In this document: piece by piece, positions 35,340-38,999 of the stretch
How positions within the stretch are numbered: the stretch's first letter is position 1
Layout of the letters: each line of letters opens with the position of its first letter
Origin: Thiohalobacter sp.
Lineage (GTDB): Bacteria > Pseudomonadota > Gammaproteobacteria > Thiohalobacterales > Thiohalobacteraceae
Direction: 5' to 3'
Assembly (NCBI RefSeq): GCF_027000115.1
Contig: NZ_JALTON010000027.1
Span: 1-57,757, forward strand
DNA: 57,757 bases
The notes under the pieces: generated by a model
The model's database searches: none
What the model saw: the letters and a program-made list of their open reading frames with translations, nothing else
What the model was told of the DNA's origin: nothing
Position numbers and translations under genes: made by a program

Positions 35340-36134
35340 TCAGGCGAGCATGTTGCGGATCATCTGCTTGACGGTGACAGGGTCGAAGGGCTTGTCGCAG
35401 ATGCCCGAGATGCCGGCCTGCTGCACCGCGGCCAGCCGGCTGCTGTCGCCCTCGCTGGTGACCATCAGTACCGGGATGGCGCGCTGCGAGCTGTGTTCGC
35501 GGATGTAGCGGGTGAGCATCTCGCCGTCCATCTCGGGCATGTTGTAGTCGGTGACCACCAGGTCGAAGAAGCGTTCCTCGATCAGGGCCACCGCCTCGCG
35601 GCCGTTCTCGGCGGTGGTGATGTCGTGGATGCCGAGATTGCGCAGCACCCGAGCGATGTGCTTGCGTGCCAGCGGACTGTCATCGACCACCAGCGTCACC
35701 AGGTCGTCCAGCACCACATCGGCGAGCGCGGCACTGTCGGGATTGACGAATTCCAGCGTCGCCCCCAGGGCGCGCTTGAGGTCACCCGGTTCGAAGGGCT
35801 TGGGCAGGATGGCTACCACGCCGGCCTGGCGGATGGGGTCCAGTTCCGAGAAGGCCGTCTCGCTGGAGATCATCATGAAGGGGGTTTCCGCGAGTGCCGG
35901 GTCCTGGCGCATGGCGTGGATGAGATCGGATGCGGTCATGTCCGGCAGGTACATGGCGCTGATCACCAGATCGGGCGGAAACTGACGCATCTGCTCCAGG
36001 GCATCGGCGCCCTTCCCGTGGCACTGCACATCACGCACCTTCGCGCCCTCGAGGTGGCCGCGGATGATCTGTGCCTGCACGCCCGAGGGTTCGACGAGCA
36101 CGATGGAGAGATCCTGGATGGAGAGTGCCTGCAT
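35340..36134 (-). CDS. Double-receiver response regulator with degenerate first receiver
   Basis: 264 aa from ATG 36134, two CheY-like domains in tandem and no output domain. REC1 (about 8-125) lacks the phosphorylation site: the acidic pair is Glu15-Pro16 and the phosphoacceptor position is Ala60 (VISAMYLPDM), though the KPF lysine (Lys112) remains. REC2 (about 146-263) is intact: Asp151/Asp152, Asp196 (VVTDYNMPEMDG), Thr226, Lys248. Last of the ParA-CBM48 gene group, so it may transmit a phosphorylation signal to that system; no cognate kinase is in the window. Confidence 0.9.
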   Translation of the reverse strand: MQALSIQDLSIVLVEPSGVQAQIIRGHLEGAKVRDVQCHGKGADALEQMRQFPPDLVISAMYLPDMTASDLIHAMRQDPALAETPFMMISSETAFSELDPIRQAGVVAILPKPFEPGDLKRALGATLEFVNPDSAALADVVLDDLVTLVVDDSPLARKHIARVLRNLGIHDITTAENGREAVALIEERFFDLVVTDYNMPEMDGEMLTRYIREHSSQRAIPVLMVTSEGDSSRLAAVQQAGISGICDKPFDPVTVKQMIRNMLA

Positions 36135-36215
36135 GGGTGGTCGGGCGTCTGTCCTGCCGGTTACCGGCTTATCGGCCGGCCACACCGCTCGCTGAAGGCC
36201 GTGTAACGGCGGGGT

Positions 36216-36722
36216 CTACAGGTGGTCGAAGAAGGCGGATTCCTCGGGCGACAGGGGGGTGCCGTCCTCGTCGCGCGGTGCGGGGCGCAGGCGGGCGGGC
36301 TCGCTGGGGATGTCCGCCGGCGGCTCCACCAGCAGGCCCAGCCGGCCATCGATGTCCAGCAGCTTGCAGGGCCGCCACTGGAAGCCGCGGAGCCGGGACA
36401 GCAGGCTGTTGCCGGCGGGTGGCGCGGGGCTGAGCACCATCAGGTCCGGCAGCGCCGACTCGCCGGTCTCCGCATCGGCGTTCGCGTGGGCCATCTGGTC
36501 CAGCGCCACCAGGCCCTGCAGCAGGGCCCGGTTCGGGTCTTCCAAGTCGAAGGCCACCAGCACCTGTTCATGATCGCCGCAGCGCACCAGCAGCGCGTGA
36601 TCGCTGTCGAGTTCGGGATGGGCTTCGATGCGCGCGTCCTCGCCGCACAGCCGGGGGACCTGTTCGATGATCAGGTCACGGAAGGCCTCCTGGGTGACAT
36701 TGCCGGCCAGTTGGATCTCCAT
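36216..36722 (-). CDS. Conserved-looking protein of unknown function (168 aa) in the ParA-CBM48 cluster
   Basis: Not recognised. 168 aa from ATG 36722, with an AGAGG site about 10 nt upstream; the longer frame overlaps the preceding gene and is rejected. Mixed alpha/beta, no signal or membrane segment. Residues about 40-75 (HALLVRCGDHEQVLVAFDLEDPNRALLQGL) and 100-150 (LPDLMVLSPAPPAG...GFQWRPCKLLDIDGRLGLLVEPP) look like buried strands; the C-terminal 25 residues are acidic and Pro-rich. It starts 14 nt after the MinD-like gene ends, which argues for shared function. Confidence 0.65.
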   Translation of the reverse strand: MEIQLAGNVTQEAFRDLIIEQVPRLCGEDARIEAHPELDSDHALLVRCGDHEQVLVAFDLEDPNRALLQGLVALDQMAHANADAETGESALPDLMVLSPAPPAGNSLLSRLRGFQWRPCKLLDIDGRLGLLVEPPADIPSEPARLRPAPRDEDGTPLSPEESAFFDHL

Positions 36723-36735
36723 CTCACTGCATCCT

Positions 36736-37350
36736 CTACTGCGGGTCGGATTTGCGGAACAGCCGCTGTGGGCGGGTACCCTGCGGCTGGCTGTGGACCA
36801 GGCTGGCCAGTCGGGCCAGTGCCTGGCTGAAGTCGGGGCCGGGGGTGGGGAGTTCGCCCAGATGTGCCAGCGGCAGGTCCAGGAAACGCAGCGTGCCCAC
36901 GGCCAGCCGCCGGTAGCAGCGTCGCGCGGCGAAACGGTCCCGGGCACCGACCATCAGCACGCCCAGGGATTCGGGCCGTTCCGGCCAGTGCTTGATCCGG
37001 GCATAGGCGTGGCGGATGCCGGGCAGGCTGGCCTCCACCAGCAACAGCCCCCAGGCATTGCGCGGCAGGTTGGTGGTCTCCCGGCTGCTTTCGAGGGTCC
37101 AGGCGTGACGCGCGTCGGCGGCCTGGTTGTGCAGTTCGAGCTGTCGCGCGAGGGCATCGAGGAAATAGCGCACCTCGGTCCGGTCCGGCTGCCGTTCCAG
37201 CGCCACCAGCACCGGCAGGCGTCGGCTGCGCCCATCGTCGCCCTTTCCGGTTCCGGTGGCCGTCTCGGGCGCCTCGCCCAGTAACTGGTCGGCGAGGCGC
37301 CCCAGCGAGGACGTCTCCCGGCGTGCGGGCTTCCATGCGGGATTCATCAT
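36736..37350 (-). CDS. MinD/FlhG-like protein without Walker A
   Basis: 204 aa. The N-terminal SLGRLADQLLGE segment is followed by a region (about 60-188) that matches the second half of MinD/FlhG ATPases: LLLVEASLPGIRHAYARIKHW corresponds to the 'tpea..aYaliK' helix, VLMVGARDRFAARRCYRRL to the 'N' strand and helix, and RFLDLPLAHLGELPTPGPDFSQAL to the conserved C-terminal region. The N-terminal P-loop and switch motifs of a ParA/MinD protein are absent; VLVALERQPDR sits where a nucleotide loop would be. So it is probably a non-catalytic partner. It begins 15 nt after the ParA-CBM48 stop. Confidence 0.65.
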   Translation of the reverse strand: MMNPAWKPARRETSSLGRLADQLLGEAPETATGTGKGDDGRSRRLPVLVALERQPDRTEVRYFLDALARQLELHNQAADARHAWTLESSRETTNLPRNAWGLLLVEASLPGIRHAYARIKHWPERPESLGVLMVGARDRFAARRCYRRLAVGTLRFLDLPLAHLGELPTPGPDFSQALARLASLVHSQPQGTRPQRLFRKSDPQ

Positions 37351-37365: not shown

Positions 37366-38406
37366 TCAGACCCGCAGCAACGAATTGTTGCCGCCCAGCG
37401 CGTTGGGTATTTCCACCGGATTGGTCGGATCCTGCTGCCAGACGCCATCGATGATGACCCGATATTCATAGGCGCCGGGCCGCACCCGCAGCTTCTTGAT
37501 CCAGATGCCGTCCCGCTGTTCGGTCTCGACGCCGGCGTCCGGCTGCCAGTCGTTGAAGTCGCCGGCGATCTGCAACCGGTGCGCGTCCAGTTGTTCGAAG
37601 CGCAGGGTGATCTCGCGCTCGCTGTCACGGGTGGTCTGCCGTTCCGTCAGGCCGAAATGCTCGACGACCTCAGTGGCCAGTTCGCGGTAGTCGGCAGTGA
37701 CCGGGGCCTGCGGCGCCAGCCGGGTCAGCGGCACGCCGAGATAGGCTGCCTCGCGCACCCGGACGCTGGGGCGGATGCGGCTGGCACAGCGGGGTGTGTC
37801 GATCTCCTGCTCGATCGTCTCCATCATTTGCCGGCCCATGCGGGTACGGAGGTCGAACATCACCGGCAGCAGCCGCTGCGGAATGTCGATGTGATAGCGC
37901 TCGGTGATCATCTGCAGGGTCTCGCGCAGGCGTTCGATGCCATCCAGCGAGAACAGGCTGGGCTCGACCGGTGTCAGCACCAGGTCCGAGGCGCGCAGGG
38001 CATTGACAGACAGCAGTCCAAGCGACGGCGGGCAGTCGAGGATGGCGAAATCATAGCGGCTGCGCAGCCTGCTCAATTCCGTCAGCAGCTTGCGGTCGCG
38101 TTCCGGGTCGTTGGCGAGCTGGGCCTCGAGGCCGGCCAGCCAGATGCTGGCGGGAATCAGATCCAGGCCGCTGCCCTCCTGGGTGAGCAGGGTGGCACCG
38201 ATCTCGCATTCGCCGCCGAAGACTGCCTCCAGCCCGGGTTGTCCGGCATCCCGGGCGGCGCCCAGTCCCAGGGTGGCATGCGCCTGTGGATCGAGATCGA
38301 CCAGCAGTACCCGATGGCCAGCCTCGGCCAGGCAGGCGGAGAGTTGTATGGCGGTGGTGGTCTTGCCGCAGCCACCCTTCTGGTTGGCAATGCTGATGAC
38401 GTTCAT
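37366..38406 (-). CDS. ParA-family ATPase fused to an AMPK-beta-type CBM48 domain
   Basis: 346 aa. Residues 1-250 are a ParA ATPase: deviant Walker [10 protein letters not shown] (10-18), [11 protein letters not shown] (38-48, switch I), and Walker [11 protein letters not shown] (121-130). Residues about 262-346 form a separate beta-rich domain with AGDFNDWQP (281-289), [17 protein letters not shown] (311-327) and GGNNSLLRV (338-346). This is the AMPK-beta/isoamylase N-terminal glycogen-binding pattern, with Trp287, Trp323 and Asn341 at the sugar-contact positions known from AMPK-beta. The start has a strong GAGGAGGT. Downstream are the MinD-like, 168-aa and double-receiver genes. Role inferred: nucleotide-driven positioning of a polyglucan-bearing or envelope cargo. 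It is not next to parB or an origin, so chromosome partition is unlikely. Confidence 0.9.
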
Positions 38407-38540: not shown

Positions 38541-38999
38541 TCAGCATCCCTGCGGTAAGACCTCCCTGAGTTCGGGGAAGAGTTCGGCCTGCTCGGGTGC
38601 GTTCAGGCCCAGCTCGGTCTCGATGTCGCGTGCGAAGCGGGCAATGGGCAGCACCCAATGCTGGCCGCTCATGACATCGAAGGCATCGTCGCCGCGGATG
38701 GCGAGAATCACCTCGCCGGCGACCACCAGTGAATATTCGCTCAGGGGGTGGGCGACGTCCGGGAGCAGGCGTCGCAGGGAATCCAGGCAACGCCGTATCC
38801 GCTGCAGGGAGAGGCCCTGGTCCAGCAGTTCGCGTGCGGTACGCAGCGCGATCAGGTCAGTGAAACTGTAGCGGGCGTGGCCGCCGGGTGTGCGGGCGTC
38901 GGGGGCGAGGAAGCCGGAGTCACGCCAGTAGCGCAACTGGCGCTCGGTGAGGCCCGAGAGTCGGGCGGCCTGTCGACTGGAGAACCCCTTGTCCGCCAA
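38541..38999 (-). CDS. MerR-family transcriptional regulator
   Basis: 152 aa from TTG 38999, chosen because GGAGG (39009-39005) lies 5 nt upstream; a GTG two codons earlier overlaps that site. N-terminal winged HTH: FSSRQAARLSGLTERQLRYWRDSGFLAPDARTPGGHARYSFTDLIAL, with a Tyr-Trp wing typical of MerR. A short helix (ARELLDQGLSLQRIRRCLDSLRRL) follows; the C-terminal ~75 residues (LVVAGEVILAIRGDDAFDVMSGQHWVLPIARFA) form an effector-like domain without metal-binding Cys pairs. 134 nt upstream of the ParA-CBM48 gene on the same strand, so it is a candidate regulator of that group. Confidence 0.85.
   Translation of the reverse strand: MADKGFSSRQAARLSGLTERQLRYWRDSGFLAPDARTPGGHARYSFTDLIALRTARELLDQGLSLQRIRRCLDSLRRLLPDVAHPLSEYSLVVAGEVILAIRGDDAFDVMSGQHWVLPIARFARDIETELGLNAPEQAELFPELREVLPQGC

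Follow-up and report, generated by a model that had tools for sequence, protein, structure and literature searches.

A conserved gene cassette, apparently undescribed until now, occurs in many bacteria and has as its central member a ParA-type ATPase fused to a glycogen-binding module of the CBM48 family. It may constitute a ParA-type positioning system with glycogen or a related alpha-glucan as its cargo, a reading to which we assign a probability of roughly 0.45. ATPases of the ParA/MinD group position chromosomes, carboxysomes, flagella and chemotaxis clusters; we know of no report of a storage polysaccharide being handled in this way. Neither a ParA positioning system nor a CBM48 domain is in itself new; their fusion, accompanied by this set of partners, appears to be so on a search of open-access papers, and glycogen would be a possible new cargo. 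The example described here lies in a 57,757 nt stretch of the genome of a Thiohalobacter species (the window), and its features are listed in Table 1.

Table 1. Positions in the window of the cassette genes and of the two domains of the fusion protein
Feature	Coordinates	Strand	Remarks
F3, MerR-type helix-turn-helix protein with conserved C-terminal region	38541..38990	minus	MerR_1 E 1.9e-17; start codon approximate
F0, ParA-CBM48 fusion, 346 aa	37366..38406	minus	AAA_31 E 1.4e-50; AMPK1_CBM above cut-off
ParA ATPase domain, approximately residues 1-255, with deviant Walker A	37630..38406	minus	
CBM48 (AMPK-beta type) domain, approximately residues 263-346, including W287, W323 and N341	37366..37620	minus	
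F1, FleN/FlhG-like protein lacking a P-loop, 204 aa, with N-terminal motif resembling a ParA contact (divergent: SLGRLADQLLG)	36736..37350	minus	
F2, protein of NucS/EndoMS-like fold lacking nuclease residues, with C-terminal tail LSxEExxFFxxL	36216..36722	minus	

The ParA-CBM48 fusion protein

The gene is real and had been placed correctly in the preliminary description, its reading frame running from an ATG at 38406 to a stop codon at 37366. The N-terminal part, said there to carry the ParA motifs, matches the Pfam family AAA_31 over residues 1-172 and contains the deviant Walker A motif KGGCGKTTT, the A' residues D37 and D39 and the Walker B residue D124. Across 16 orthologues K10 and K15 of the Walker A motif (including the signature lysine), D37, D39 and D124 are invariant, with one Cys/Val variant elsewhere in the Walker A motif. 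The nearest PDB chains to the ATPase part are those of ParA/Soj (E 6e-39 to 5e-31), MinD being further off (2e-16), and MinD models match it weakly. By homology with nucleoid ParA proteins, the domain would be expected to bind ATP, to dimerise and to bind the nucleoid. A separate ParA gene adjoins parB in the same genome, on contig C40, hence the possibility that the fusion is the chromosomal ParA was rejected. Inspection of the protein sequence by eye revealed neither a signal peptide nor a membrane segment.

The assignment of the C-terminal region to CBM48 is borne out by profile searches. AMPK1_CBM (PF16561) covers residues 267-340, its score of 32.0 bits exceeding the cut-off of 26.8 (E 1.5e-7), and a profile built from 14 orthologous regions matches the glycogen-binding domains of AMPK beta-2 and beta-1 in the PDB with E values of 1e-12 to 6e-11; the weaker PDB matches (pullulanase, SEX4 and LSF1) are also linked to alpha-glucans. 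W287, W323 and N341, which had been proposed to occupy the sugar-contact positions, are present in all 16 orthologues, and in the best 80 of 415 relatives retrieved from genome sequences they occur at frequencies of 0.91, 0.91 and 0.90 respectively, the remainder being nearly all alignment gaps. Hence the loss of these residues across orthologues, named beforehand as a test of the assignment, was not seen. The likeness to the AMPK beta domain, both in the E value of 1e-12 and in the retention of the two tryptophans and the asparagine, is accompanied by two differences: the module is attached here to a ParA ATPase rather than to a kinase scaffold, and two further positions, the counterparts of AMPK-beta K126 and T148, which we take to be sugar contacts, are occupied by R316 and G339 or by other residues.

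Distribution of the fusion

The C-terminal region was found in five of 11 genomes of Thiohalobacterales, the order to which the window belongs, and the fusion or its cassette in 15 of the 369 genomes of the class sample, spread over ten families. When 84,980 species genomes were scanned, 415 CBM relatives emerged, the best 80 of which were examined for the fusion; it was intact in 71 of these 80, from at least six phyla. With such recurrence it is neither a chance fusion nor an assembly join. Its holders belong to the Gammaproteobacteria, Muproteobacteria, Nitrospirota, Rokuibacteriota, Myxococcota, Acidobacteriota and Planctomycetota, the last two represented by one genome each; nearly all are metagenome-assembled genomes, such that single placements may be wrong. 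The ParA-CBM48 fusion is an old one.

Some carriers have unusual architectures or neighbours. In three Nitrospirota proteins (L061, L063 and L080) some 400 aa of linker with many acidic residues stand between the ParA and CBM domains; in L080 this linker also includes tandem repeats of DEDDEELLAA. In two loci of family f82 (L043:14140-18697 and L045), the upstream neighbours of the fusion include, at a distance of a few genes, those for sucrose synthase and sucrose-phosphate synthase/phosphatase. An aldose-1-epimerase-family gene is directly downstream of it in two carriers that have no cassette, of which one is a Sulfuricaulis (L097:6537-7442, and L091:4081-4998, the latter identified by eye). 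In a member of the Phycisphaerales a stand-alone CBM48 protein is encoded immediately after a gene for a GH57 glycoside hydrolase (L124:4561-6219).

A conserved four-gene cassette

Comparison of 18 neighbourhoods, made independently of annotation, revealed four families in a single order: F3, a MerR-type helix-turn-helix protein; ParA-CBM; F1; and F2. All four are present in the window, where ParA-CBM, F1 and F2 are separated by 13-15 bases; a tandem CheY-like receiver protein, encoded after the cassette on the minus strand (35340-36185), was found only within the window's own family. Searches with family HMMs detected the cassette in the majority of gammaproteobacterial loci and in several of those from Nitrospirota. 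In other Nitrospirota and in Myxococcota an F1-like gene is beside ParA-CBM, and in Rokubacteria an F2-like gene adjoins it; several carriers lack F3, and in some lineages (Sulfuricaulis, Muproteobacteria and family f82) these partners are not nearby. F1 and F2 are merged into one reading frame of 462 aa in locus L089, which suggests that they work together. Pfam, profile and fold searches identified no ParB-fold protein among the conserved partners. The preliminary description knew of no characterised ParA with such a domain, and our search of open-access papers likewise found none, nor any description of the fusion with this partner set. The conserved partners, the ParB-like motif of F1 and the loci that have lost ParA but retain the CBM (both treated below) did not feature in the preliminary description.

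F1 has no significant match in Pfam or NCBIfam. Its profile matches structures of FleN/FlhG (7.7e-8), which are also the best fold matches to its AlphaFold model (pLDDT 78; 5e-5), with TM-scores of only about 0.4. The protein differs from FleN/FlhG in its length of approximately 200-300 aa, in the absence of the P-loop from all 38 F1 proteins checked, and in an additional motif at the N terminus. This reads RLxxISHHFLS in Gammaproteobacteria, LGRGLEDISHYFIS (also given as KRLGRGLEDISHYFIS) in Nitrospirota and RRRGLGDVLHYFIP in Myxococcota, the copy in the window being divergent. The chromosomal ParB proteins of four related genomes start KKxGLGRGLxAL, comparable with the F1 motif of these three phyla. 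Proteins that partner ParA/MinD ATPases act by means of charged, disordered N termini (PMC10241942; PMC12204374); F1 is the cassette member with a peptide of this charged or ParB-like kind, and the motif is a putative ParA contact. The resemblance to ParABS and Soj-Spo0J systems extends to the ParA/Soj type of the ATPase and to the LGRGL of the ParB N terminus; unlike those systems, the cassette has no ParB-fold protein and has CBM48 fused to the ATPase, in a genome with its own parA-parB pair. Among the 369 class genomes, full-length F1 matches outside the carriers were confined to a contig edge (G188) and a degraded cassette (G006); the other matches for the most part span only the FlhG-like segment. 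In five Rokubacteria loci (L111, L116, L122, L127 and L131) a ParB-like motif, PLGRGLEDVSHLFLS, is found on the F2-like protein rather than on F1, as if the putative ParA-contact peptide had moved between partners.

F2 likewise has no significant match in Pfam or NCBIfam. The top folds for its model (pLDDT 90) are NucS/EndoMS, with a borderline E value of 1.1e-3, a probability of 1.0 and a TM-score of about 0.46. It differs from these in its lack of nuclease residues: inspection by eye of 41 F2 proteins revealed no conserved acidic/Lys set corresponding to the catalytic D...E-x-K, the Rokubacteria F2-like proteins reading EIDLLAVD...IIDFE in this region (by eye). F2 looks like a catalytically dead protein of the NucS fold, as judged from the model. 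The C-terminal tail LSxEExxFFxxL (36216-36260 in the window) is kept in most homologues, including those at loci without ParA, and looks like a binding peptide for some partner.

Repeated loss of the ATPase domain

In six loci of Thiogranum/Thiohalobacter type (L038, L065, L070, L075, L076 and L083) the ParA domain is missing and the CBM is kept between F3 and F1, standing as a protein of 97-143 aa (at 9569-9916 in L038, which seems to have a short ParA remnant). The ParA-like gene situated downstream in L065 was set aside as a different, generic gene. On a tree built from F3, CBM, F1 (leaving out the motif) and F2, the best topology has five losses of ParA, at least three of them on well-supported branches. 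In the degraded cassette of G006 (L151), F3, ParA-CBM and the N terminus of F1 are gone, and the F1 core and F2 remain.

The F1 motif is found in 48 of 52 loci containing ParA and in two of seven lacking it (Fisher p 5e-4), a pattern recognised post hoc among related loci. The tree shows three losses of the motif, all of them in ParA-less rows, numbers too small for a paired test to reach significance. The decay of the motif with ParA is suggestive only; because it usually accompanies the loss of ParA, the motif is probably a ParA contact. The intact CBM at these loci suggests that this module also serves F1, F2 or F3, and the persistence of CBM, F1 and F2 after the loss of ParA points to a role for the module beyond positioning.

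Association with glycogen metabolism

Both GlgA and GlgB were detected over their cut-offs in every one of the 18 genomes that carry the fusion or cassette; 15 of these genomes belong to the class sample. Within that sample, all 15 carriers have GlgA, compared with 199 of the 369 genomes overall, a contrast inflated by relatedness; non-carriers in the window's family have GlgA too. PHA synthase (PhaC) exceeded the cut-off in only two of the 18, which led us to reject an association with PHA granules. The genome containing the window has GlgA on contig C58 and GlgB on C47, the latter with an apparent GlgC, GH57 protein and MalQ (all three by eye), so that, of the genes which the preliminary description had listed to be looked for, glgA and glgB are present and glgC appears to be.

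Of 46 genomes reached via the named loci, 36 have GlgA over the cut-off. Nine carriers (five Rokubacteria, three Myxococcota and one of the Phycisphaerae) lack it, and it is present only as a contig-edge fragment in one Sulfuricaulis genome; GlgB exceeded the cut-off in two of the nine. These distant carriers may have a different alpha-glucan as the ligand, or their genomes may be incomplete. The neighbourhoods were also searched for glgA and glgB, and neither gene was found beside the cassette. The connection with polyglucan proposed in the preliminary description appears likely from the constancy of GlgA and GlgB and the scarcity of PhaC in the 18 genomes, whilst the Rokubacteria and Myxococcota without GlgA, and the absence of these genes from the cassette's surroundings, count against it.

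Functional interpretation

A positioning role is supported by several lines of evidence: a CBM of AMPK-beta type with conserved contact residues; an ATPase closest to ParA/Soj and distinct from the chromosomal ParA; a conserved cassette in which F1 has a ParB-like motif, in three phyla, that is mostly gone where ParA is gone; the co-occurrence with GlgA and GlgB, and seldom with PhaC; and the precedent of ParA/MinD partners acting through charged N termini (PMC10241942; PMC12204374). By analogy with known ParA proteins, an ATP-bound dimer would reside on the nucleoid, and CBM48, given its AMPK-beta homology and conserved contacts, would hold an alpha-glucan particle. On meeting the dimer, the ParB-like peptide of F1 might stimulate ATP hydrolysis and release, as its sequence and its decay upon ParA loss would suggest, and the resulting cycle could form a gradient that moves or spreads the glucan cargo. 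F1 would act with F2, its fusion partner in one genome, and probably with the CBM as well, whilst F3 may control the operon or anchor the complex to DNA. In its fullest form, that of a machine dedicated to positioning or partitioning glycogen, activated by a pseudo-ATPase partner with a ParB-like peptide and conserved across several phyla, this proposal is put forward tentatively, as possible but short of probable.

Other observations argue against positioning: CBM, F1 and F2 are kept after ParA loss; GlgA is absent and GlgB mostly absent from the Rokubacteria, Myxococcota and Phycisphaerae carriers, with no glg gene beside the cassette; and the ATPase itself bears the cargo binder, an arrangement unlike that of any system known to us. 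The McdAB system is similar in pairing a ParA-family ATPase with a small partner whose N terminus mediates its action (PMC12204374), and in having a metabolic body as its cargo, as may be the case here; it differs in that McdA has no cargo domain and reaches its cargo via McdB, whereas the presumed cargo binder of the cassette is within the ATPase.

The main rival, a serious one that we consider somewhat less likely than positioning, is that the cassette is a regulatory switch. FleN acts on FleQ as an antagonist, and AMPK beta senses glycogen; CBM48 might similarly sense glycogen or maltodextrin, with the ParA dimer and the FleN-like F1 forming an ATP-dependent switch on a transcription factor, perhaps F3. 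The presence of a MerR-type protein within the same gene order and the resemblance of F1 to FleN are in keeping with such a sensor, which is also somewhat favoured by the retention of CBM, F1, F2 and F3 together in loci without ParA. However, a ParA activation cycle is indicated by the ParB-like peptide of F1 and by the way this peptide decays alongside ParA; several carriers are without F3, and no target genes are known.

It is less probable still that CBM48 has lost sugar binding and become a protein-interaction module that docks F1 or F2, with something else as the cargo. The domain does stay beside F1 and F2 after ParA loss, two of the AMPK-beta contact positions are substituted, and distant carriers lack a classical GlgA; yet a pure docking surface would not require both tryptophans and the asparagine to be near-invariant across phyla, and GlgA and GlgB are constantly present in those gammaproteobacterial carriers that belong to the class sample. 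A carbohydrate sensor linked to the envelope, as the preliminary description had suggested, or a MinD-like membrane system is very improbable: the weak match of the ATPase to MinD models and the resemblance of F1 to the MinD-type FlhG are outweighed by its best solved relatives being ParA/Soj, by the CBM occupying the C terminus, where MinD has its membrane helix, and by the lack of any signal peptide or membrane segment evident in the sequence.

Should the cassette indeed position glycogen, it would provide the first known instance of a storage polysaccharide being actively placed. It also illustrates how a presumed cargo-binding domain can be joined to the ATPase, brings three protein families of unknown role into a common context, and makes the active placement of glycogen, and its sharing between daughter cells, a directly testable question.
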